Under the pieces are notes generated by a model, which was not told where the DNA came from, ran no database searches, and saw nothing but the letters and a program-made list of their open reading frames with translations. 64,000 nucleotides of DNA from Gavia stellata (Eukaryota; Chordata; Aves; Gaviiformes; Gaviidae): positions 20,659,930 through 20,723,929 of the forward strand of contig NC_082595.1 in NCBI RefSeq assembly GCF_030936135.1, written 5' to 3'. Made by a program: the position numbers and the translations under genes. This document shows, piece after piece, positions 779-46,238 of this stretch (position 1 is the first letter of the stretch; each line of letters opens with the position of its first letter).

Positions 779-3643
779 CTGTTTGCTGTGTTTCTAAGAA
801 AGGCGTTGAGCATAACACTACTGCTGCTGTAGATGGAGACGGTGAGTAAATGCCCACCTTTTGCCTTTACTCCCCGTGGCTTGTGCAAGCACTTTTCCCA
901 TTTCTTCATGCATTCCTTGAGGGAGAGGCTGGCCTGTTGCTGGAAGTTCTGTGTGAGGGGTATAGATTTGGTAAGAAGCCTTCAGCTCTGTCCTGCCCAG
1001 CGTGTCTGGGGGCCACAGAAAAACCTGGTCTAGCCAAGGAACAAATGTGCTGTAGGGTTCACAGGTAGCATGCTGGAGCAGCTGATTCTTAAGGCACTAA
1101 GAGGGCTGAGGAGAAGAGGAGGATATGCATGGTCTTCCCAAGAGCTGGAGGTAGCTAGTTGGGTGTTCTTCCTGCCCCATAAAGGGTGGGTGCTTTCTGC
1201 TTGGAGAGAGGTGTTCTGTCAAGCTGTGCCAGCATACCAATTTTGTGTGCTGTCCCCTGGTCCCCAGCTTAGTTCTCACTGTGCCTCCCTCAGTCCTTGG
1301 GAGACCATGTTCACAGTGCTGCCTTTTCTCTGCTCTGCAGATGATGAGGCAATGGCCACGGAGGTGACTCCCCCTGCCAGCGCAGAGCTCACCGAACTCG
1401 GCAAGTGTCTGATGAATCAGGAGGTAAGAGCACATGCTCTGACTTCCATCATCCTTTCTCTGTAGTCTTTGTCACGCTTGTCTGTGGTGCAGCCAGATGC
1501 TGCCGCAGAGAGCTAGGCTGCTGGAGCATTCCCCAGTGTGAGAATCTTCTCTTGGGAACATACATGGTTTTTAAGGGCCTTGTTAATGGTTGCAGAAACC
1601 ACAAAGCAAATGGGGGTCGGGATCCAGTATAATATGCAGCTACAGAGTTTCAGCCCTTCTGTGGGCAAGGCCCTGGGCATTCAGCCCGCAGGGTGCTCCC
1701 TGGCTCTGCCTCCCTCCTGGGCTCCAGCTTTCATGAGGAAGAACTTCACCGCACAGCTCTTTTTCTGAAAAATCTGCCAGAGCTGGCACAGGAGCCAAAA
1801 TGTTAACACAACCCACTGTGCAGAGTACCTTCATTCCGATACCTCTGTACTCCTCCTCTCCTGTGGATGCCTCAGAAGCTCTTGCAGAAGCTTTTGCAGT
1901 GACTTGAGAGTAGAGGCGGATGGGAGTCCATGGGTGCTCCAGGGCCTTTCCAGGGGAGATGAAGGGAGCAGGTTTGCTTGACGTTGGTTCCTCATGGCTA
2001 TGGTGGTGCACACGGAGTGCATTTGAGCACCTTCACCTGGAGCAGCAACAGCACACAGGATTCTCAGAAGACGGCCCCGAGGAGCTCCTGCAGAGTCCCT
2101 GGATTGCTTCTTGGCTCCCTTCAGGTTTGAACCCTGGAGGTGGGAAATAGTTCCTCTGACTGTTTTCCCTCCCCGACTCCTTTTCAGGACGTTTGCACTG
2201 CACTGCTGATCACTGCCTACACATCCCTCTCCTGGAAGGACACCTTGTCCTGCCAAAGAACCACAACACAACTTTGCTGGCCGCTGCTCAAACAGGTACC
2301 CCTCTGGGAGGAAGAAGGGATTAGTTTGGAGGGTTGGGAGAGGAAGCTCTGAATGTAGTGAGAAGCATGGCTACTTCACCCCTGGGCACCTTATCGCTTG
2401 GGAAGACCAAGCTGCTGCAGAAAGACAGTCATATATTGATCAGTATCCTGCTTCTGTGCTGACAGTGCCTCTTCCCTAGGTGCTTCCAGGAAACCTCCTG
2501 CCTGATGCAGTGTCCTGGTTTTTCACAAGTGTGCTGAAGGGCTTACAGACACACGGGCAGCACGATGGCTGCATGGCAGCTCTTGTCCACCTGGCTTTCC
2601 AGATCTACGAGGCCTTGGTGAGAAACTCTGCCCTTTGTCCAGATGCCAGGTTGGCTGAGGAGTGGTGGAAAATTAATCCCGTGCCTGCTTGGGTAGGGGC
2701 AGAGGAGCTGATGGCCCTCCAAGGAGGGCAGGGCTGTTCCTCTAGCAGAGCTGTGTTAACCGTACTTCTCCCTGCAGCGCCCTCGCTATGCTGAGCTGAA
2801 GGCAGTGATGGAGCAGATCCCAGACATCCAGAGGGACTCATTGGAACAGTTTGATTCAAAGCTTCTCAACCCAACACTGCAGAAGGTGGCAGACAAGCGC
2901 CGGAAGGATCATTTCAAGCGCCTCATCACAGGTTGCATTGGGGTAGGTGATATCCTGGAGGAAAATGAACCTGTTTCCTTTCATGCCCGTCCCCTGCTGA
3001 AGCGATGGGGCAGCCAGTCTACCTGCTTCTCCCCAACCACCCCCCTTCCCAGCCAGGAAGCTGTTGCAGCATATTCTCCATGTTTGTTCTGCCTCTCTTC
3101 AGCCTGGAGGTACACTGGGAATGGCAGCACAGACTGAGCAGCCCCTCCAGCAATGACTCCTCACTGAGAGGCAGGGAGTGCCTTGCACAAGAGTGCCTGT
3201 GGGAACAGGGTGTTAAAATGTTTGAATGAAGCTGCTAGGGTGGGTGCTGGGCTTTTGTGGGGATGGTGGTGTTGGAGTCTGATAACATGGTGTTAAAAGC
3301 TGGGGAGCCGCTGCACTGGTGGTTACCCCAATGCCCTGGCACTTGGGAAGGACCAGGCCTGAGATTCCCCAAAATGCAAGCACAGGGTGTGGGCCTAGGG
3401 ATTGCTCAGAATCTGGGCTCTGCCTCTGATCTCCAAGCAGGCTGCCCCTGAGTTGAGTGGAGCTATGAAGGCAGTAATGACTGATGCCTGCCTATCTGTC
3501 CTCTGCAGAAGCCCCTCGGGGAGCAGTTCCGCAAGGAGGTTCATATCCGGAACCTCCCATCTCTCTTCAAAAAGGTGAAGCCATCATTGGAGACGGATGT
3601 GCTAGAAAATGAGGATGGAGAGGGCCTCACTGGACTCTTTTGA
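779..3643 (+). CDS. XPO5: Exportin-5, C-terminal part (six last coding exons)
   Basis: RanGTP-dependent nuclear export receptor for pre-miRNAs and other double-stranded small RNAs; a karyopherin-beta HEAT-repeat protein of about 1200 aa in human. Only the last ~229 residues are here; earlier exons lie left of the window. Exons by reading: 779-841, 1341-1423, 2188-2295, 2480-2617, 2778-2942 and 3509-3643, all GT-AG with compatible phases (the 841/1341 junction splits an Asp codon). Recognisable strings include KDTLSCQRTTTQLCWPLLKQ, HGQHDGCMAALVHLAFQIYE, KVADKRRKDHFKRLITGCIG and KPLGEQFRKEVHIRNLPSLF, near-identical to my memory of the human C-terminus. The stop is TGA at 3641-3643. This part is the C-terminal HEAT region and acidic tail. 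Convergent with POLR1C. No lesions seen. Confidence 0.97.
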
Positions 3644-18647: not shown

Positions 18648-20429
18648 CTTCCTGTGTCTAGTCTCACTCTAGCTGCTCCTCATCCACTGTTTTTCTCTGT
18701 TTATGTGTTTGCTCTTAATGGCATCAGTCTGGAGTCAACTCTCATTCCTTGTGCCCCCAGTAGGTAAATAATAAACTACCTTCCTCATACCTGCCGGGTA
18801 ACTGCACATGACAAGGAAGCTATATCCAGTTCTTCACAAAATACCACTGCCAAATTTCTCTCTGCGTAGCCCTTAATTAGGTTTAGTAAGCCAAAGCTTT
18901 GGACCATTAGCTCCTGTGACACTTTTCCTGTACTTGAGCATAAAGCAAGGTAGGATGCTTGTCTCCTCCATGTGCTCTTGCTCCTGACAACAGGCAGTGA
19001 AGATGCCAGCACTAGGGCATCTTCATCAGTGCTTCCTGGCTGCTGCTTTCAATTGAAGTGGGACATGTCCCAAGGGCTCTCCTCCAAACACCTCTCTAAT
19101 AATAGCCTGTTTAATGAAGCATGGGTTAATTAGTGCCTGGAGGTAACTGCGAGGTGAGACTGAGTGCAGTTTTCCAGTCAACCTGTACAGATCAGCAGCT
19201 GGTATTTTCTTGGTCACCGCCCTGCCCACCACCCTGACATCCAGCCTCTGCCCCTCACAGGCCTGCAATACGTAGGATCCCATTCTCACCTGGACCATTT
19301 AATGTGAGCTTAGCGATCAGTTGGTCCTTTTATGAAAGCCATCATCTGTATAACAGCTGGATGCTCATAGCTGCTGCTCATATCCCAGTGCAGATGTGTT
19401 CCAGGCCAGCGGTCTGGTCTTGGCGCAGTTTGCAGGTACAGTATCAAGCCCATGCACCCCTGTGCAACAGGTAAACAGAGGGGTGTGTAAATAGCTCTAG
19501 AGAACAGCAATGGATTACTGAAAGGGCATGGTGACACCTACACTGTAAATTAGATGCTGCAGACAAAGTCTTAAAGGTGACATCTGAGTCCAGCTTCTTA
19601 TCTGCTGCTCCCCTTGTCTCATTCAGGACCTCATTCAGGGGTGACCTGCTCCTCCATTTCAATGGGGGAGAATTGCTTCATGTCCCACTCCACATCCTAC
19701 TTTTCCCCTCACTTACCATCCCCTCTCTCCCACCCCAGCCTGCAGACCAAGCAGAGGAGCCTGGGTTTGTCCCAGAGTTACCCACCGGACTGGAATTCAT
19801 TTGAGCGCTGCTGTGTGCAGCAGCCAGATTAGTTACGTGCAGAAAGCTGCCTACTTAGGCGGTTTAACCTAATTTCTGCATCACTGGCTTTCTTTTTCAG
19901 CTCAGTGGAGTTGAAAACACAGGGGCCCTGCTTCCTATTTCTCTCCAAAAACAGGATTACCAGATGGGGGGAGAAAAGGGACAAATCCCTCTGATCCGTA
20001 CCTGCGAATTAGTAGGGGGCGAGGTACGCCCCTCACACCTCAGGTCAGGCTGAGGGTGAAGGCTGCCGGCTTGCAGGGATATGGAAGCCTGCAGCGCTTC
20101 CCCAATCCTCCACCTTTCACCAGCTGCTCCAAGCACCAGCTTCCTGAGCCCTCAGCCACCAAGAGCGGTTCAGACCGACCTCACCATTAAGTCATGGGTC
20201 CAAGCCCGAGGTGTAGCCAGTTTAAGCATAAACGTCACTGAAGCTGGCGGGAGACTGCTGCTCCTCAGACCAGGAAGCACGCAGACTAGGCCATGGCCCG
20301 ATGGCTTTGGCCCCTTCCCCAGGTGGGAGCGGGGCCGGCAGGGAGAGCCCTTCCCAGGGGCTTCTCCCACCCTCCCTCCCCTCCTGCGCCCCCTCAGCTC
20401 CTGGGACACAGCCCCCGCCGGCCTTGGCC

Positions 20430-21680
20430 CCGCCATCGCCTCAGGGCCGCGGGCAGGAGCTGGCGGGCACCGGCGCTGCCCCTCACGGGCTTCGAGTGAC
20501 GCCGCGACCCAAGATGGCGGCGAGGCACGGCGGTGTGGGATGGGGGTTCCCGGGGGGTCCCGGGTCCCACCCCACCCCGCCCGCTCCCTTCCGCGAGGAG
20601 GCGGCCCCGCCCGGCAGCGGGCCGAGGGGAGGGCGGCAGGCGGCGGCGGCCCGCCCCGGGCGGTAGGAGGGCCCAGCGTGGCGGCAGGGAGGAGGCGGGG
20701 CGGCCCGGCAGGTGCGGGCGGAGCGGGGCGGGGAGCGGCGGGGCTGCCCGCCCCCCTCCCGGCGATGCTGTCGCAGCGGGGCGGCGCGGCCCGGCGGGGC
20801 TCAGAGCCCGGCGCCGGTCCGGATTAGCCCCCGCCGATGGCTCCCCCGGGTCTCGGCGCCCGCGGAGGGGCGGCGGCCCCGCCGGGTGTAGCGGGGCGGC
20901 CCGGCGGCCTCCGGTAGGGCTGCGCGGTGACGCCTCCGGGGCCGCGGTGGGCCGGGCCGGGACTGCCCGGCGGCAGCGGCGGCGGCGGCGTTGGCCCCCG
21001 CCCCGCCCCGGCCCGCAGCGCGCAGCGCGGCTCCCCCCGGCGCCCAGCCGCCGCGACGGGATCGGCGGGCTGCGGCGGCGGCGGGCGGCGGGCGGCGGCT
21101 CCCCGAGCGGGGGAAAGATGCTGCCGGGGTCCATCCAGATCTCCGGGGAGACGCTGTCGGGGGCGGAGATCCGGGACATCTGCGAGAGCCTGCGGGAGAA
21201 CTCGGTGCGGCTGCTGTCGCTGCGCGGCTGCCAGCTCTCCGAGCGGGACTTCGGGCACGTCTGCCGAGCGGCGGCCGAGTCCCGCTCCCTGGCCCAGCTC
21301 AACCTCAACCTGGGCATCGTCTCCAACATCAACCGCGTCAAGCAGCTGGCCGAGGCCCTGAAGACAAACCGCTCCGTCCAGTCCCTCTTGTGAGTACAGC
21401 GGGGCGGGGGGCTGCGGGGGGTGCCCCGGCCCCCTCCCGGGCAGGGACGGGTCTTTCGGGGGCTCGCAGCTCCGGCTCAGCTGCTGAATCTACGTCTCGT
21501 CGGAGGAAAAACACCTCTGGGGTTGCAGAGGGTAACCCCTCGCCCTTCACCCGGCTGGGAGGGAGCTACCTCTGCCCCGCCGGCTGGGCACGGCCTTGGC
21601 TTTCCGCCCGTCACCTCCAAGCAGGGTTGCCCCGGTGTCGGGGGCTGCCCCTGCCTCACTGGCATCCCCTGCACCCTCTC
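20430..21680. promoter_or_regulatory. LRRC73: CpG island and promoter of LRRC73
   Basis: Dense CpG sequence covering the upstream region, the first LRRC73 coding exon and the start of intron 1. TATA-less. It has AAGATGGCGGC at 20511-20521 (YY1 type), the same motif and orientation as in the YIPF3 promoter, which suggests transcription starts near 20490-20510 and a 5' UTR of about 600 nt. Start site and boundaries are inferred. Confidence 0.75.
20514..20666 (+). other. Possible upstream ORF in the LRRC73 leader
   Basis: The ATG inside AAGATGGCGGC opens a 50-codon frame (MAARHGGVGWGF...) that ends at 20666, before the LRRC73 start. It could act as a uORF only if transcription starts upstream of 20514. 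It is GC-rich, so openness alone is weak evidence. Confidence 0.3.
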
Positions 21681-24600
21681 GTTCCAGCCGGGACGGGAGG
21701 GTCACCGTAGCGGCTGGCTGACCCTCACAGCACAGGCTTCCCAGCGCTTTTTGCCCACCTGGGGTTAGGATTTGTCATGCTTCTCATTTCGTCTGCTTCT
21801 CCCTCCCCATCGGGTTAATTAGCACTCAGGAAGAAGGCTGCTTAGTAATTTTCCCTTTTACCTGCACAGCCTCCATGGGAGTCCCCTGACAGATGCAGGC
21901 TTGGCCCTCCTCAACCCTGCTCTCTCCATCCACCCCTCGCTGGTGGCTCTGGATCTAGGAGACTGCATGCTGGGTGATGAAGGCATCAACCTTATCTGTG
22001 GGCTCCTGCCACCTGACGGGGCTAAGTCCGGTAAGCACCAGGGGTTGTGGGCTGCACAATGACCAGTGGAGCTTCACATGGAGCAGATGCATGCAGCAGT
22101 AAATCCTCAGCCCTGGAGGAGACAGGCTGTGTAGTTTGTTTGGGCTGATGAATTTCTTTCCCCAACTTAAGTAAAGCAGAAAAGCAATAGAGGAGCCATT
22201 ACCTTGGGCAGGCATGGGCTTTCTGCTATTGATCTGTCCTGCTGGCAGTTTGGAGCTCAGGGACCAACAGGTTGCTTCTGGTTCATGACAGGAGCATTTG
22301 AAACTGGAGGAGGGGACAGCTTGGACTTTGAAGCTATTATTTTGTGTTTGCGTGTTGATAATGACCGTAGATAAATATATGGTGTGCCCCCATCTCAGCA
22401 CTTGGCTTTATTGTCAGTGCCTGAGAATTGTCCGTGCTTGCAAGTGCACTCTGTGAATGTGTAGTTGCATGGTCATAGCCTTAGTGCCAAGACTCAGGTC
22501 TTTGCTGGGGATGATCTTTGGTGGTCAGAGGCCAGTGGGCTAGTTAAGCTGAGAGCTGGCATGTGCTGAAATAACACCACCCCTCTCTCCTGACTCTCAA
22601 AGTGCTTTCCACCTCTCCCCAGCACCTTCTCCTCTGTGTGCTCACAGTGCCACTGATGCTGTTATCTCTGCTGGCCACCCCTCCCAGGGGCAGGCTTCAG
22701 AGCCTACTGTCCCTGTTATCCTCTTTCCAACCTGTCACCTTGTGTCACCTCCTTCTCCTGGTCAGTCACCTTGCACACCCCTTACTTGTTTCCATTGTGT
22801 TTGCTATTTAGGGTAAGGAAGGACACAGGTTGGGAGAGCAGAGAAGTGGGGCAGTCACAGCATGGGCAAATGAAGGGCTACTGCTGAAGGCAGTGAAATA
22901 TTTCAGTGATCAGGGAAATATGTGATGACATATTAGCCTGTCAGAGTACAGGGAACACGACTCAAAGCTGTTCTGGTTAGCTGGACTGGTTCCCCTGAGG
23001 CTGCTTTGGTGACCCTAAGGTTCTGGTTTGGCTTCTCTCTTCTCCAGGCCTCAAAGAGCTAACGCTGAGCGCCAACCCTGGTGTCACAAGCAAAGGCTGG
23101 GGACGCCTGGCCATTGCAGTGGCTCACAGCTCACAGCTCCGCGTGCTGAATCTGGACTACAACCCCCTAGGTAAGCTGGGGGCACAGGGAGGAGGAACAG
23201 GGGACGCTGCACTCCTGTCTCTCAGTATTTGTGTGATTTGCACTGGTGGGTGGTGGGGGACCGAGCTCTAGAAGAGCGGCAGAGCATCACCAGCAGGATG
23301 AGGCAGTTTCTTGCATAGGTCCCTTCTGGTCCCCGGCAGCAAGTTCACCCTGCCAGGTGCCCTCAGCTGTAGGGAGAGCCAGCCTTGCTGCTCTGGTTGT
23401 GTGAGGTGGCCACGTGCCCTGAGGGGAGGTGCAGAAAGGAGATTGTGCCTTGCGCACTCCACCGCCTTTGTCGTCACGTTTGACCCTCCATGTCTCCCCT
23501 GTTCCTGAAGCCCTGGGCGCTGATGCTGGCTTGGCAGATGCAGTATGTCCCTGAGCTCCCCCCTTCATCTTCCCAGCAGAACAGGGAGGAGGAAGAGAGC
23601 CTGGCATTTGTTGTCATAGAAACCAACTCTTACCAGCTCTGCTGCAAGGTGGTGAGGAGACGGGGCCATGTCTCCCTGATGATCAGCAGGGTGCTCCCCT
23701 CCTCACCCCGTCTGGAAACAGAGCCTCCCTCCAGGTCCTGTCTGTCTGACCAGGTACCTTCTCTTGGGCAGGAAAGGCCCCAGGGTGTTATCTGACAGCA
23801 GCCTGGGTTTTTTTCCAAGAGAAGGTGTCACAGTTATATGGTATGTTGGCACTCACTGGGGAATGTCAGGAGAACACACTGGAGTCTTGTCTCTTCATCA
23901 GCATCAATCTTTAATGCTCCTGGTCCTGCTGTGTCCACCCCCAAAAGTCTGCTCCTTTTCCAGGGAGGCAGTCCGTCAGCTGCTGCAGAGTCCTCTGTCC
24001 AGCTCCAACCTCCCCCTAGACTGAGGTATTCAGCTCCTTATTCTGCATCTGGGATGCCTTACAGGGACTGTTAAAGGCCCTCGCATCCTTGAGTAGGAAG
24101 GAGATATGGGAAGATATCATTCCTTGGGGAATAAAAGGTTTCACTGTGTTCCTTCATGTTCCCCTGATAATCTGTGACTGTTCTCATAACCGCAAAATGG
24201 TGCACTTTTACTTTGTCTCTTTTCCCAGTTAACAGCTTTTTTTCCCCCCCAAGGTAACTGAGATTTGGAGGTTGCCTGATGGCAGAACTACTCAGGGGAT
24301 GTTTCCATGACAGCCCCAGACCCATGAGGGCATGTGGTATTACATGAGGGAAGGCAGGCACTGCTGACAGCCCTGGTTTGCTTCTCCCACAGGTGACCAG
24401 GTAGCAGGGATGCTCGCCGTCGCTGTGGCCTCCAGTCGAACCCTCGAAGTTCTGGACTTGGAGGGAACAGGACTTACCAACCAGTCAGCCCAGGTATGAG
24501 AGCCTACAGTTATTCTACAGCATCACTGACGTCTCAAGGGCATAGATCTTGGCCATCTATAGATGCCCTAGGACCTATACCTGCTTCCATCCCCCTCCCC

Positions 24601-37700: not shown

Positions 37701-40700
37701 GGGTGAAAGGATCTTGCGGAGGGTGTGAATGATTTTGGAGGACTCCTCTGAGCTATGTCATATATAAGCATGTGACCAATGATTGATTTTTAACTGAGGT
37801 ACTTTTCAGGTAAAGCGGTGATGTATTTTCTTGCAGCCATCAGTGGCTCCTTTTGCACATGTGGGGTAACCATCCAAGCTGGATCCTGCCTTACATCCAA
37901 CAGATAAAGAATTCCCTGTTTTTGTCAGCCCATCATGCTGGCAGCATTCCTACACTGTACCCCGGAGGAAGTAATGCTTGCAGAGCCTTTCACTCCCCTA
38001 CAGTCCGGGGGTGCACCTTTCTGAGGATGCAGCATGCCTTTGATTTACACAACAGGGCACAGCCTGCTCACGCCAGCTGAGGGAGTCCTTGGTGGGAGGG
38101 ATCTCTCTAACTCTACCCCTCTCGTTTTCTTTTCCATACCTGCGGAATTTGTCCTTGAATTTCTCCAGCTCCTCACGGTTCTGGCCCAGCTCCATCTCCA
38201 GGTAGTCCTGACCTGACTCCAGCTCCCTCTCCATCGCCTCCATTTTGTTAGTCACATATGTCAGCCTTCGGCGAAGCTCCTCATTCTCATGCTGCAGCAG
38301 CCTGGGGCACACAGGAACAAGGTACCACTGAGTGCACAATGGGTACTCCACACTAGCAGCCCCACCCCACTGCCCTGCTCTGGGGCCCAAGACCCCACAC
38401 AGGGGCCCCAGGAAGTCAGAAACTGAACTGGCAGGAGACTCCAGCACACACAGTGAGAGGTGCATCTCTGTCAGGAGAGGGAGACTCAAATTCTCTTGGA
38501 GCAGGGGCAAAGAAGCACATGCCAGATGGCCAGCCATGGCTCCCAGTTCCCTCTCGGGTTACAGTGCTTGGATAAAGCCCAATAGCCAGATGAGCTGTGC
38601 AGCTCCAGTGTCCCTCACTGGTGAATGAAACCCACTCAATAATTTATCCCAGTCCAAGTTAGAAGAGTTGAAGGCAAAAAGAGTAAAATCATCATCTCCT
38701 CCCCTGAAACTGTTCAAAAGCCCTCACACCTTTAATACATGGTGGAAAGAAGACTCCATACAGCCTTAAGCCCAGAAGCAGAGATGGTGGGGTACATTTG
38801 CAGATGTGATCACAGTTGTCAGTCAAATCCATTCCAATACAAACTTCTCCATTCCTCCCCAGCCAGGACATGCCTGGTGGTCAGAAGGATTTCCTGTTGT
38901 TTTTCATTCCTTTGTGCTCAGTTGCTCAGAGAAACACAGCTTCTCCCTGGCAGTGCAAGCTTTCTCCTCACTATGGCTTGGAGCTCAGTGCTAGCAGCTG
39001 TCTGCGCCCCACACCACCACCAGCAAAGGGCTCAGCTCTCACCCTCAGTCAGCAGCAGGCCTCTGCATACTGCTTCTGGTGGCTTACACCAAAACAGTGG
39101 CAACAACAAGAATGGTTAAAAAAAGGCACTCCTCTCTCCACCTGTATTAAAGGCTTCATCTCCTACTTTCTTTCACACCCACCAACTTCTCTGCCTGCAC
39201 CTGCACTGGGGGTCCATGTTTCCTCCTGCTCCAGGGGGAGAGAGACATACAAGGCAGAGGTTGGCAAGGCACAGACTAAAGCTCTGCCCACATGGCCCCA
39301 AGAAGATTGAAGATCTGAGAGGAGCCTGCAGGGCCAGTCAGCTTCATTGTGCAGGTGGCACAGCCTGGATGTGAGGAATCAGCACCCACACAGTTGCAGT
39401 ATGACAGGCATAAAGAGGGAGCAGGACACTTACTTCATCCTTTCTGTATCCGTCAAGGGTTCCTGCACAGGGAAGAAAACAACTGTGAGATTCTTTCAGA
39501 AGAGGATTTGGTCTCTCACACCGTCCTAAAGGGCAGAGTGTTGGTTGCTAGATCCTACCTATGACTCTTCCTCACCTGCTCTGACAGGTCATGCTAGGCA
39601 AGCTTAGAGCTGCTAGGATCCGTACACACCGCTCAGCTGTCTGATACCAAGACAGACTGTGTGTTCTGGTTCAGGGTAGAAGAGCTAGACTAGAAACCAC
39701 CACACAAGTTAGGTAACTTTACTCTCCCACGGTGCAAACTCAGCATCTCTTGGAACATTGTCAACTTAGCTGGTGTTTCAGCTTCCTCCACATCCACAGT
39801 TAGTGGGTAGCAGGAATCTCACAGGCCAGCATACACTGAGGATTAAATTGTCACCACAGCAATCACAACACCCTTGAAGCCCCACAAAAAGAAGGGAAGA
39901 GAATCATTTGGGAGCTGAAAAATGCATCTACCATTTACACCGCCCAGATTGTGCTGTGAAAAGGGTTTCTTTCTGCAGGCCTGAAACCAGCCACTGTAAC
40001 TATTCTGGGATGGCAGAAGAAACACCGGTCAGAAAAGCCAGTGCAAGACATTAACGTTCTGGGCAAGACCCCCAGAGATGGCTGGAGCAGGGACCTGCAG
40101 AACAAGGAGATACAGCACAGTGACAGTGAGCACACAGCTCAGCTATTCTCACTTCGTTTGCACTCTCTGTGTTAACCCATGAGATGGCTGCTGCCTGCCA
40201 GCACAGCTGGGAGAGATTTCATTAGGACTAGAGGCAACTGTATTTTCTGTGAAAGCCCAAGACTGCAACCATTCTCACAAACTCCAAGCTGCCCATGAAT
40301 TATTTTTGGTGCTTGGTATCAGCAGCACTGCACAAACCCAAAGTGCTGCCACACTTCAGATTGTCCATTAAGTGTCACAGCCAGCTCTGGGCTGAGAGGC
40401 CATGTCACAGACAGCTATGGATGAGGTTGTTGAGCTGCTAGCAATGTTACAGAAGGCAAACCATGCCAGTCCTGGCCCTAAGACATCATGGGTCTGCTTC
40501 TTTCATCAATTCACACTTTAAAAGAATGGTCCTTACCACCTGCATACATCCTTCTGTCCCTAAAGGCAAACCATCAATCCATTATTTTCTTACATCCTGA
40601 CCCCACATGGCAATCAGTTAATTCATGCAGAATTATCTAGCAACTGCCTCCCCTACTCCCACAAATATACACACAGCAGATGCTAGTGACCAGGCAAAGG

Positions 40701-42669
40701 GGATAATATGATTCCTATTAAAATGAGGCAATGGCCCCAAAGCAGGCTGGAGAAAAGAGGTGAAGGCTCACAAAGACCTGAAACAGCCATCACACAAAGA
40801 TCCAGTACCCCAAAACAGCCAGGCACAGGGCACACACAAAGCACTGAGGACATCCCAGCACCTCCTGACAACGGACCTGCCTGCCTCCTGCACATGCCTG
40901 CTGCCCCACAGCCTGGAGGGCCTCCAACCTGCGAACACCTGGGCAGTCTGCAGTGGGGAGAACAGCACCAGCTCCTGCCTTCCTAACTCCTGGGGTCAAA
41001 AGAAAGCTGTTTCCTCCCAGGAAGATATACCCAACCCGGAGCACAGCCATGAGTGGCACCCACAAGAGAGCAGCTTCTGGTGATTAAGCACCCACAACAT
41101 GAGGTCTGGTGGCCTGCTTTCACTCTCCCCTCTGGCATTACAGACTAGATGAGATCCAGGTGGGGGCTTTGACCTTTGTAAAACCCCTGTCTGTGAGCCA
41201 GTGGCCCTGGCACCTACCTTGTTTAGTGCCAGGCTGAAGGAAGGGGAGGATCTAGATGGGGTAGGCCCCTCCTCCCGACTCCAGCGTGTTGGAGTGGAGA
41301 AGGATCCTTTCTCTGGGTAGTTCGGCTCCACTGCATGCTTCTGCCCAAGTTTAGCACACAGATGGTGTGGCTGTAATAGCCGTGAACAGGGACTGCTTTC
41401 ATCCCTTCTGCCCTCTGCACTGCTTTTCCATGAAGACAGTGAGTGCTGCTGCCCAGAGGATGTCCCTGCCAGCCCCACATCTGCCAGCTGCTGCAGCTCA
41501 TACTGACACAGATCTACTACCCTTCTCTCCAAGGAAAGGAGTTTTTCCTTACTGTCCTTCCTCCCAAGGACAGGTTTCTTTCTTAGTCTGGAAGCTCTCT
41601 CAGCCTCCTCAACACACTTTCTCTGGCATGAAGCCATTCCCAGCCCCTCACATTTCTTTTCTGCTTTTCTTCTGCTTGGGCCAGGGGATCTTTCAGTTGC
41701 ACGCTTGGTTTTGACCCCTTGCAGGTGACCTTCCCCTTGGCCTTCTGGCACGGAGCTTCTGGGGAAAAGGGGAGAGTTCTGGTCTTGTTCTGCTCCCCTG
41801 GTCTCTCCCAGTGAGCGCAAACGGATGGGACTCAGCACGCGCTGGGTAATCTCATCCAGGAATTTGGAGAACTGCAGTTTTTCCTCTGTGATCTTCTCCC
41901 TGCGCTTGACAGAGTCAGCGGCACTGCTGCTGCTGTGCTCCAGCGAACGCTTCTCCCTATGGCTGAGGCAGAGCTGAGGGTCACTGTACTTGCGTGAGCC
42001 ACGGCCACAGGAAAGCACCTCTACTGAGCGGGACTTGCGTAAGCTCTCAGGGCATGGGCCTGTCATGTCGGTCTGCTTCAGGATCCCTTTGAGAGGCAGG
42101 TGTGTAGAGGAGACCCGAAACTTCCTCGGTGTCAGGACTTCAGGAGGCTCTTTAAACATAAGCGAGCGTTCCAGGCTTCTGCTCTTGGAAGAGCAAGTGG
42201 GATGATGTCTTTCATCTCCAGACACCACAACTGCCTCCATGCTACGGCTCACAAATTTGCTGAGGTGCCCACGACTGTGGTTTGGGCACTGCTTCCCACT
42301 TCGCTGCCCCATCTTCCCACCACGTGGAAGTGCTGGCGAGACAGTCTGGGTCTTGATGTTCAACTCTGCTCTGCACCCTGTCACTTCTTTCTCACTGCTG
42401 GACTCCAGGGACCACGATGAGGAGAAGTTCAGGTTGCAAACCTCAAACCCCTCTGCCTGCTTGAGCTGGCCTGCCTTGGTGTAACTAAACCCTGTTTGCT
42501 GGTGCAATGGTGTTAAGCCCTTTGCCACCCGGCAAGCCGTTACCTGACTCTGCTCGGCCAAGATCACTCCATCCTGGTCGTCACGAATGATGGGTACCTC
42601 ATGGCGGATCTCGCGATGCTGTGGGGGCGCCTTGCGGTAAGGCTTCTTTGATGGAGCTGTGCTCGACAT
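31768..42669 (-). CDS. TJAP1: Tight junction-associated protein 1
   Basis: Coiled-coil protein (PILT) of tight junctions and trans-Golgi, related to BEGAIN. Exons in transcript order (short form): 42669-42544, 39462-39434, 38301-38140, 37502-37436, 35705-35598, 34881-34798, 33084-31768; 1893 nt, 630 aa (human 557). Strings seen: KKPYRKAPPQHREIRHEVP (N-terminus), EPLTDTERMKLLQHENEELR, ELGQNREELEKFKDKFRR, KKAEMDRKTLDWEIVELTNK, QLLKCNKSHFRNHKFAD and the tail MGVHHLHRKDSLTQAQEQGN. Residues ~53-185 form the coiled coil. The large last exon (438 codons) is Ser/Pro-rich, with PTSVIARVLEKPESL and YPGRKVIEFSEDKVRIP conserved. A second donor after 41218 would extend the first exon by 442 codons (separate entry). 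Start chosen by homology. Confidence 0.96.
37010..37050. repeat. GA-rich simple repeat
   Basis: Purine run GGGGAGGAGAAAGAGAGAGA and onward in a TJAP1 intron. Confidence 0.8.
41218..42543 (-). CDS. TJAP1: Alternative in-frame extension of TJAP1 coding exon 1 (442 codons)
   Basis: The frame that begins at the TJAP1 ATG stays open past the short donor (CAG|GTAACG, exon end 42544) for 442 further codons. It reaches a consensus donor AAG|GTAGGT (exon end 41218). Both donors are phase 0 and both join in frame to GAACCCTTG at 39462, giving a protein of about 1072 aa. The segment is basic and Ser-rich. It has RS(M/L/V)E motifs near residues 142, 164, 214 and 241, GILK at ~195-198 (fits the PP1-docking SILK consensus) and a helix-forming stretch LQFSKFLDEITQRVLSPIRL at ~265-284. 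Without splicing the frame would run to a stop at 40996. I do not recognise this segment in mammalian TJAP1. Coding status is strongly supported by length and phase; transcript use is inferred. Confidence 0.75.
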
Positions 42670-42702
42670 CCTCCCACCTGCGTGGCTCCGAAAGTGGGTT
42701 AC
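42670..42702 (-). other. TJAP1: TJAP1 5' UTR adjoining the start codon, possible acceptor
   Basis: On the minus strand a pyrimidine-containing run ends in TTGGTAG at 42703, a plausible acceptor 33 nt before the ATG. CACGCAG closer to the ATG is an alternative. If neither is used, the exon extends further upstream. Confidence 0.4.
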
Positions 42703-42989
42703 CTACCAACAGCAGAAAGTGCACAGAGGAGAGAGTCACCGGCGCTCCATCGAACCCTAGAAGTGACCCAGCAGGAATTCAGCTCCCCTGGAGTCCCAGA
42801 GCAGGTCCCCATGCAGAGTGCTAATAGAGCAGGGAAAGGATGTGGCCACAAGCCTTCAGGAGCAGCTGCAGGAGAGGGAGCAAAGTAAGAGGTAGCTGTG
42901 TCCTTCTCCCAGCCAGTGAGAGCAGAGGGCTGGCACATCCTCTCCCCGCCTCTACACACGCTCACTCACGTAGTTTGTGTGTGTCTAGA

Positions 42990-42998
42990 TTATATATA
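42990..42998 (-). promoter_or_regulatory. Possible TATA box of an alternative TJAP1 promoter
   Basis: Minus strand reads GCTATATATAATC. Transcription starting about 25-30 nt downstream (~42965) would give an unspliced leader of about 300 nt before the TJAP1 ATG. Based on a single motif. Confidence 0.2.
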
Positions 42999-44610
42999 GC
43001 AAACGAGAACAGACCTCATAGCAGCATATTGATTAGGCTCTTTAGGAAAGGCCTTTTCCAATATGGAAACTGCAAGCCTTAGAGGCAGCAGTGACAGCTG
43101 GAGCAGGAGTTATTGATCATGTGCTGTCACTGTCAGCAGGGACTGTGTGGGAGGAGACTCCAGCCATTAAAGAGCCCAAACCCAGAAGTTTTTGGCTTAA
43201 ACTAGAACCCCAATGGAACAGACCACAGGAGGCTTGTCAGAAGGACGTACCATACCATTACAACTGCTGGCTCTGTCAGAAAAGACAAAGACTACCCCCA
43301 CGTCACAGGCAGCATCAAATTAGGGAGCAATGCCACTGACGTTGTTACCTAAGGCCAGATTTTGCAACATGCAGCAGTACCACTAGCAGAAAGACCAGAT
43401 TAGTCCCTTTACCCGAGCCGTGTTGGGCAGGATTCTTCCTGCTGCAGGAGCAGTACAAGAGCAAAAAATGGGATAGAAGGAAAGCAGCTGTCTTGTACGC
43501 ATCGAAGAATCTCCTTCCTTCCCACCACTTTGGGACTGCAGTGAAGGGCAGGAAGACTTTCCCCCAAGCAGCCAGCATTTCAACCACCCCGTCGTACACA
43601 AGGCAAGAAGTCTCAGAGATGCCAAGCAGCCCCTGCAGAGCCTGATACCAGACTTTCCCCAATGACAACATATGCATCATTCATAGTCCCCCTATATTTG
43701 GGGTAAGCACCCACTTCTCATTCCCCTTTCCCTTGCTGGATCCTAACACTGATCAAGCCTAGCATCTCTGCAATCCTCAGCACCTGACCCGCAGCATTTC
43801 AAAGTGCAGGACCTGCCTCTACTTAGATCACCCTCTCCTCTCTTCTACAGGCAGGGCCATTTGACTCCCATTCACATACCTTCAAGGCAGTCAGTGGATA
43901 CCACTGGGCCAGTGACCTAGCAGACTTCACTTGCTTTGTGTTTTGGCCAGTGGAGTTTTACACGTTAAGTGTCTAAATGGAGCCCCAAGAATTCTCTCCA
44001 ATTCTTATCCATTCTTGCCTAGCTGTGTCTTGTTGACACTTAGACTGAGAGCCCTCGGAGGACTGGCAAGCATGAGGTTTCTGCACCAAGCACAGAGTGG
44101 CTCCAAGCCACAACAGGCTTTACACTTCACAGGAACATTTGCAAGCTGTCCTCCACTCTGCTAAAAACACAAGCTCACAAAAGTTTCTCACGCCTTTCCA
44201 CAGATATAAGCAACTTCCTAGGACTACCTGTAAATCTCCACCATCAGAATGCTGGAAACTCCCCCTTGCTGCAGTCATTCCCTCAAGGTCCCTTCTCCTA
44301 AAAAGACTCAAGTAGGTGAAGAGATCTTTAATACTTTAGAAAAATCACATCCAGAATACCAAATGCACATTCCACTGTGTTCCCAAGCAAAACTGATGGG
44401 CCTGACTTGCTGGGAAGACATTTCTCTTCTTCAAAGATGAATGCTGAAATCCTGACCAAAAGCAGGTTTGTCAACACCTCACCATCAAACAGGTGATCTA
44501 GGGGACTCTTCTGTCAATTCCTGCCAGACTAAGGACAGGAGATGCACATGGAGATATCCCAAGCTGAAATCACAATCGTTTCTCTAGCCCACAAGGATCT
44601 GAGCACTTAC

Positions 44611-44665
44611 CAGCCTAGGCTCAAATTCAAAGCCTCATGAAGCAGGGACACTCATTCAGATGCCC
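44611..44665 (-). other. Candidate 5' non-coding exon of TJAP1 (55 nt)
   Basis: Minus strand: acceptor TGTTTCTCTTCTTCAG directly before 44665 and donor CTG|GTAAGT after 44611, both near consensus. The exon is not open in the frame that continues from the 46239 candidate. It is therefore likely untranslated leader if real. Confidence 0.45.
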
Positions 44666-45808
44666 CTGAAGAAGAGAAACAAATAGCTTAGCATCCATCA
44701 AAACAGCCAGTTTGAAATCTCACCCCATAAATACGTAAGGAATAGGGAACGTTTATAACCAAGGACAATTGAATGTTCATCTCATTCCAGGTACCTGCCC
44801 CAACCCACATCAGATCTTCTGAAAGTAAATGAAATTAGCTTAGGATAGTTGGGCCACATAGCCCAGCAAGAGCTAGAAAGGCACCTGGCAAGGACATGTC
44901 CAAGGCACTTAGGCAACTAGGACCACACACACTCAAAATTCATGAAGCAATAGCTTCAAGGGAACTTTGGTTCCAGGAAGGACTAAACAAACCTCCTGCG
45001 AAATGGGATCCTCCCAGCTAATCTTCCCCACTACTGCAGAGGGATGCTAACTGTGAAGCCTTCTGTAGAGAAGCTTGGTAATGCTAACAATTACCTCACT
45101 CATCCTTTTAAGTCAGTGCTTCTCACCTACAAATGAGCTGGCAATTATCAGACTCTTGTTTGAGCCAAAACATTACGTCCTTGTGCCTACAGCTGTGATA
45201 ACCCACACCTCCATGAAAGAGGAAGGCAAGCTACTCTCTGACTTCCAGCAAGCAGCATGCCATGCTCTACTTTGCTGCTAACAGGCTTTTGTAAAATAGT
45301 GTCCAGACAACCAGGGATACAACACAAGTTCAGAAACAACCTTCCTCTCTGTTCAAAGCCCAGGGTACCCATCACTACAAGAAGAGAATTGGGTTGACCT
45401 GGAAGCCAGCTGTAAGAGTGTAGCTTTGTGGCCATCACTCTGCCACTGGCACGAGAAAGACTGCAGTGGAGTCTTCCCTTCCCTGATGCACTTCTGCTGC
45501 TGTGCTGCTTTTTCCCTGTCAATGGCACCAAGACCTGGGAGGCAGGACAGGAGTGCAGGGTGTGGAGCAGTTGTACGCACACAGGGAGAGCCAGATTGAA
45601 GGTGAACGGAACAGGCAGGCAACCAGGACCACGTAAACTCAAGATTTGCCAAAACAAACTGAAGAGGTGCCCTAGTGCTGGCGCTGCCCCAACAAGCTGT
45701 CTGGCCCCTTTCCTTACTACAATGCTATAGTCGGGTCTCGACTAGCACAAGAAAAAACAGCTTCACAACAATATAACTGCTCTGCGGGGCAAACTGTACA
45801 GTACAGGG

Positions 45809-45832
45809 GGAGAAAGAGAGAGAGAGGGAGAA
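45809..45832. repeat. GA simple repeat
   Basis: GGGAGAAAGAGAGAGAGAGG, a short purine microsatellite. Confidence 0.8.
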
Positions 45833-46238
45833 CGTGCACCTCCAGGAAGGACCAGGCCAGCATAGTTTGAATTTGCTTTTCCACCAACTCCCAGCAGGAG
45901 CTGGTTCAGCATCAAGGCAAAACCACCAGTCACATGGGCTGGCAGACAAGCAGAGGCTTCCAGGAACAGCTGCACAGTCCACGAATGTTTCCATTGCAGA
46001 GGTGCTCAGAATGAACACGCCAAAGGCCTCCCTGTCTCTCAGCACACAGTTCCTCAGCTCAAACAGGACTGTCCTGCTTTCCACCCCTGAGCCAGCAACT
46101 ATGCTACCTGCCATCTCATCCCCACCTAACTGGAAAAGATACCGGGATTTGAAACCTACCCTCATGATCTGAGAATTTCCAGAGACACTTAAATACTCAC
46201 AGTGCCTCCAGGCAACTTTCCCTCAAACAAGGACTTAC

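Follow-up and report, generated by a model that had tools for sequence, protein, structure and literature searches.

A long in-frame extension of the TJAP1 first coding exon in Gavia stellata, bounded by two candidate splice donors and likely protein-coding

Introduction

The closest described system to the gene reported here is mammalian TJAP1/Pilt (PF15453), with which it shares a Pilt domain in the last exon, a Mint-binding peptide at residues 9-22 and coiled-coil exons. To our knowledge, mammalian TJAP1 carries no counterpart of the 442-codon first-exon extension described below. TJAP1 reportedly binds Dlg (PMC13305319, PMC10820826) and has been localised to tight junctions or to the Golgi, depending on the cells (PMC13305319), and the human TJAP1 peptide KPYRKAPPEHRELR (residues 9-22) is reported to bind the Mint1 PTB domain with a Kd of 20.9 µM (PMC10820826). 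Other papers list BEGAIN as a GK ligand (PMC6989407) and, for the GK ligands of DLG, stress an Arg at position -3 (LGL2a, SAPAP1) or -2 (LGL2b) (PMC9005747). As to exon type, long internal exons are described as often encoding disordered regions (PMC9825244), and human large exons as C-rich and SRSF3-dependent (PMC11719525). Among the matches listed for TJAP1 with isoform, chicken, BEGAIN, guanylate kinase/Dlg or 14-3-3, the titles and abstract openings mention no long form, and peptide strings from the extension retrieved an unrelated match only.

The TJAP1 locus and its two candidate first-exon donors

The window, a 64,000-nt stretch of Gavia stellata DNA, contains a minus-strand gene whose last exon matches the Pfam family Pilt (PF15453) with E = 3.9e-173 over profile positions 2-355 of 355, and we therefore identify the gene as TJAP1. 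Near its predicted N terminus, the peptide KPYRKAPPQHREIR (residues 9-22) is identical to human KPYRKAPPEHRELR at 12 of 14 positions. The coding features, all on the minus strand, are as follows:

42544-42669, minus: first coding exon, short form, 42 codons (126 nt), with the ATG at 42669 and KPYRKAPPQHREIR at residues 9-22
42542-42543, minus: short donor, CAG/GTAACG, phase 0
42669-41218, minus: first coding exon, long form, 484 codons (1452 nt), with the same ATG and the downstream donor
41218-42543, minus: in-frame extension of the first coding exon, 442 codons, marked by its open frame, codon score and CpG content
41216-41217, minus: long donor, AAG/GTAGGT, phase 0
39434-39462, minus: second coding exon, 29 nt (EPLTDTERM), followed by GTAAGT, with an acceptor common to both donors
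38301-38140, 37502-37436, 35705-35598, 34881-34798 and 33084-31768, minus: remaining coding exons, joining in frame

Joining the seven exons with the short first exon gives an uninterrupted protein of 630 aa, and exchanging that exon for 42669-41218 keeps the frame and gives 1072 aa. A preliminary description of this DNA had proposed two phase-0 donors that splice in frame to the EPLTDTERM exon, and our reconstruction confirms this, as both (exon ends 42544 and 41218) share the acceptor of 39462. Judged from sequence, the first coding exon would fit the alternative 5′ splice site type, with two in-phase GT donors and one acceptor. The second coding exon is of microexon size, and because 29 nt cannot be divided into whole codons, transcripts that skip it would lose the TJAP1 reading frame. 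Two possible acceptors lie 5′ of the ATG on the minus strand, CACGCAG before 42677 and TTGGTAG before 42702, and the open frame starts at precisely 42702, the stop that precedes it lying within the more upstream of the two.

Scanning 207 GT sites with a hand-typed donor matrix, we obtained 9.88 for the long donor, the highest value inside the open frame and the second highest of all sites scanned, vs 7.34 for the short donor, while the five other TJAP1 donors score 7.91-10.61. The long donor is thus closer to consensus than the short one on this matrix, as had been claimed; that the 1072-aa form is a major isoform, as had been suggested, does not follow from the higher score by itself. The top donor-like site of the region, CAG/GTGAGG (11.28, ending at 39576 on the minus strand), is intronic, precedes the second coding exon by 114 nt and is out of phase.

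The explanation that we favour, and consider probable, is that TJAP1 in this bird may use two alternative first-exon donors to make proteins of 630 and 1072 aa, the additional segment being a putative disordered linker and regulated spacer; here the exons are read from the sequence, and their use is what we infer. Its closest competitor is that the long form would be the near-constitutive normal product, with the donor at 42544 little used and the gene simply possessing a large first coding exon. This agrees with the short donor being the weakest of the seven TJAP1 donors and carrying a C at +5, with the long donor being the second strongest, and with the disorder that long internal exons are described as often encoding (PMC9825244), but donor usage is not predictable from matrices alone. 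The compact mammalian layout also corresponds to the short product, and we regard a near-constitutive long form as rather unlikely.

Coding signals in the extension

From the TJAP1 start (ATG 42669, minus strand), 557 codons can be read before a stop at 40998-40996, or 568 codons from stop to stop (42702-40999), which makes this the longest open frame in the window across all six frames, followed by the last TJAP1 exon with 438 codons. Within the 442-codon insert the three sense frames 0, 1 and 2 contain 0, 15 and 21 stops. For 442 open codons the background stop rate gives a probability of 6e-10 and the stop rate of the neighbouring frames one of 1e-8, both uncorrected for searching. Markov simulations of the region reached 442 codons in 0/2000 order-1 and 0/2000 order-2 sequences, where the longest open frames were 404 and 344 codons. 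The earlier statement that a frame of 557 codons exceeds chance is therefore upheld. Three parts of the insert taken separately gave probabilities of remaining open of 0.0036, 0.0022 and 0.0013, each at that part's own neighbour-frame stop rate. Three subregions need to be distinguished:

41713-42162, minus: best-supported middle part, containing the FSKFLDEITQRVLSP helix, with frame-specific codon bias and the top hydrophobic moment
41218-41712, minus: last third of the extension, open (probability 0.0013 at the neighbour-frame rate), without frame-specific codon bias
40999-41217, minus: 73 further codons of the open frame beyond the long donor, resembling intron (codon score -0.20; probability of being open 0.08 at the neighbour-frame rate)

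Codon scores, in bits per codon, were computed with a hand-typed human codon table against the local trinucleotide background and with stops ignored. The insert scores +0.111 and the last exon +0.222, compared with a mean of -0.176 and a maximum of -0.084 in 252 overlapping, insert-sized non-coding windows, a background that takes in sequence upstream of the gene in which exons may have gone unannotated. In the insert, frames 1 and 2 reach -0.050 and +0.039, both above the intron mean, so base composition accounts for part of the codon signal. When the insert's own composition is normalised for, frame 0 still leads over the whole insert (-0.139 vs -0.211 and -0.173), and in 42162-41713 its score of -0.019 is clearly ahead of frames 1 (-0.224) and 2 (-0.175), with standard errors of 0.05-0.06. 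In 41712-41218 no frame-specific bias was found, frame 0 being the lowest of the three (-0.224 vs -0.192 and -0.131). In sliding windows, the score falls to between -0.06 and -0.12 at 41712-41353, rises again to about +0.1 immediately ahead of the donor at 41218 and is intron-like beyond it; since the dip precedes the donor, there is no sharp drop at 41218 itself. The observed/expected CpG ratio of the insert, 0.312, is like that of the last exon (0.320) and exceeds those of the flanks (0.102 and 0.181). The insert shows only weak positional base asymmetry (chi2 8.1, p 0.23) compared with the last exon (42.9), and intronic windows give a mean of 4.6 and a maximum of 14.9 (n=92).

From the open frame, CpG content and codon score together, we conclude that the insert likely codes for protein, and this claim is the firm part of our preferred explanation. 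We read the coding segment as a putatively constrained middle followed by an end that may be fast-evolving or weakly constrained. One could instead suppose that the extension is a formerly coding or weakly used part of the exon whose constraint has relaxed, its open frame being a decaying leftover, as the weak positional asymmetry and the lack of frame bias in 41712-41218 would fit; set against 442 stop-free codons, a high-scoring donor in phase and exon-like CpG, however, this seems improbable to us. Still less credible is an open frame that arose by chance where the first intron is rich in GC and was never translated. Base composition alone does raise the codon score in all three frames, and an open stretch of 360 codons does arise by composition in GC-rich sequence at 20397-21476, but local GC at TJAP1 is only ~0.55 vs ~0.7 at 20001-22000, and none of the 4000 Markov sequences reached the length of the insert, so that we judge a chance origin very unlikely.

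Searches for relatives and the paralogue BEGAIN

With a self match alone among the 14 candidates scored in its own genome, no tandem array and no Pfam domain, the segment is almost certainly not a mobile element or separate gene inserted into TJAP1, a scenario that the lack of any family match would nonetheless fit. In the own genome (1.32 Gb, 1185 contigs; 14 candidates scored), the insert retrieved itself only, with the E limit set at 0.001 as well as at 10. No tandem array is present in the extension region, and short repeats at 40500-42800 are two-copy and imperfect. Rfam gave 0 matches in 39000-46000. Outside the bird genome, the insert had 31 pattern-matching stretches in prokaryotic contigs and 3 in viral contigs, with 0 confirmed relatives in either, and likewise no confirmed relative among phages; for the middle part, 12 stretches in viral contigs yielded 0 confirmed. 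Among 144 stretches in prokaryotic contigs that matched the middle part, one (L024; E 5e-6 relative to the candidates) was rejected as chance, because the match is out of frame to the genes there and depends on low-complexity Arg/Gly/Glu residues; in our reading of its translations, L024 appears to be a bacterial contig of high GC that carries genes for type IV pili.

The same genome holds a paralogue at C7:14309705-14372042, which we take to be BEGAIN. It resembles TJAP1 in its coiled coil, where identity across the first coiled-coil exon is 50-52%, in its exon order and in a related C-terminus that ends in RKDSLT.AQ. A tblastn search of 150 kb at this locus found nothing like the insert beyond chance (best E 0.35), and no plus-strand open run exceeds 203 codons in the 79.7 kb that precede its first coiled-coil exon, the longest one resembling a fragment of reverse transcriptase. 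A BEGAIN counterpart of the insert may lie farther upstream or have diverged too far to be seen. Near BEGAIN, C7:14231849-14232457 (L009) and C7:14342125-14346318 (L020) are presumably CR1-type reverse transcriptase-like fragments.

Predicted properties of the 442-residue segment

No Pfam or NCBIfam family matches the insert, and the whole insert has no match in the PDB. The middle part alone returned two weak PDB matches (E 0.51 and 1.5), which we took as chance. An AlphaFold2 model of the segment, run on a single sequence, a mode in which models are often poor, has a mean pLDDT of 40.8 and is mostly coil-like, with helices of low to moderate confidence at 250-278, 331-339, 345-361 and 372-401. 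The fraction of disorder-promoting residues is 0.64 in the insert and 0.65 in the last exon, and the net charge of the insert is +29. The highest 18-residue hydrophobic moment among the 484 residues belongs to QFSKFLDEITQRVLSPIR (residues 266-283; 0.646), the next separate window reaching 0.603. Taken together, the segment looks like a basic, Ser/Arg-rich, mostly disordered linker that may contain an amphipathic helix, rather than a folded domain. The suggestion in the preliminary description that it could be a domain is thus unsupported, given the disorder-type composition, the low-confidence, mostly coil-like model and the lack of a matching family in Pfam, NCBIfam or the PDB.

Four RS[LMV]E motifs occur at residues 142, 164, 214 and 241 with differing codons, and since the copies are alike at only 9-13 of 24 nt in pairwise comparison, they do not represent a recent DNA repeat. 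Four copies appeared in 0/20000 composition shuffles, the motif having been picked after looking, and 121 of 3000 shuffles were equally extreme when motif choice was allowed for, making the recurrence suggestive only. The sequence FSRSMQELG in the last TJAP1 exon resembles these motifs. The RS[LMV]E motifs may be compared loosely with the GK ligands of DLG (LGN, SAPAP, LGL2), a candidate phosphoserine being followed by a hydrophobic residue with basic residues nearby. All four have a hydrophobic residue at +1; two have Lys at -3, one other has Lys at -2 and the fourth has neither. Unlike those ligands, they carry the Arg at -1 in 4/4 cases, which is a weak match to the published preferences (PMC9005747).

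In exceeding 1 kb and encoding a disorder-type segment, the extended first exon resembles large disordered vertebrate exons as portrayed in two studies (PMC9825244, PMC11719525). It differs from the C-rich human class in that the insert is 25.8% C (29.6% in the last exon) and 55.8% A+G, and this purine-richer composition does not suggest SRSF3 dependence. A large disordered exon with alternative donors is a known type; its occurrence in TJAP1 is new unless already publicly annotated, and the finding would be ordinary if public annotation already carries the long form.

A proposed compact/extended switch

In our preferred explanation, use of the upstream donor at 42544 would produce the 630-aa protein, whereas use of the downstream donor at 41218 would add 442 codons and produce the 1072-aa protein, the added linker then separating the N-terminal Mint-binding peptide from the coiled coil. 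If used, this splice choice would alter TJAP1 by 40% of its length at that position. The segment may act as a regulated spacer that increases the distance from the Mint-binding end to the coiled coil, and also as a docking platform to which the candidate amphipathic helix (QFSKFLDEITQRVLSPIR) would contribute, the four RS[LMV]E serines being candidate phosphorylation sites of basophilic kinases. The docking role is a doubtful part of this proposal.

We further speculate, tentatively, that TJAP1 ancestrally had a long N-terminal regulatory region which persists in this bird, whereas the mammalian protein as known has lost it, and that this region serves as a switch between compact and extended forms of the adaptor: in the short form the Mint-binding end would lie near the coiled-coil dimer, and in the long form ~440 residues away from it, with docking sites under putative kinase control. 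The preliminary description had likewise considered a loss in mammals, or else a gain in sauropsids. If this were true, the mammalian reference TJAP1 would represent less than the full vertebrate design, and the splice choice would be a candidate cause of differences between junction and Golgi localisation outside mammals.

Genomic neighbourhood

The 360-codon open stretch at 20397-21476 (minus strand) lies in GC-rich sequence and overlaps an open stretch on the plus strand whose translation resembles leucine-rich repeats. We consider the minus-strand frame to be probably a composition effect, and the plus-strand stretch to be presumably LRRC73; Pfam gave no match for the latter. Four other stretches of the window tested alongside 2760-3134 matched no Pfam family. 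The plus-strand stretch at 2760-3134 itself is a C-terminal exon of Exportin-5 (Pfam PF19273, E 3.2e-9), a neighbour that agrees with the mammalian TJAP1 neighbourhood.
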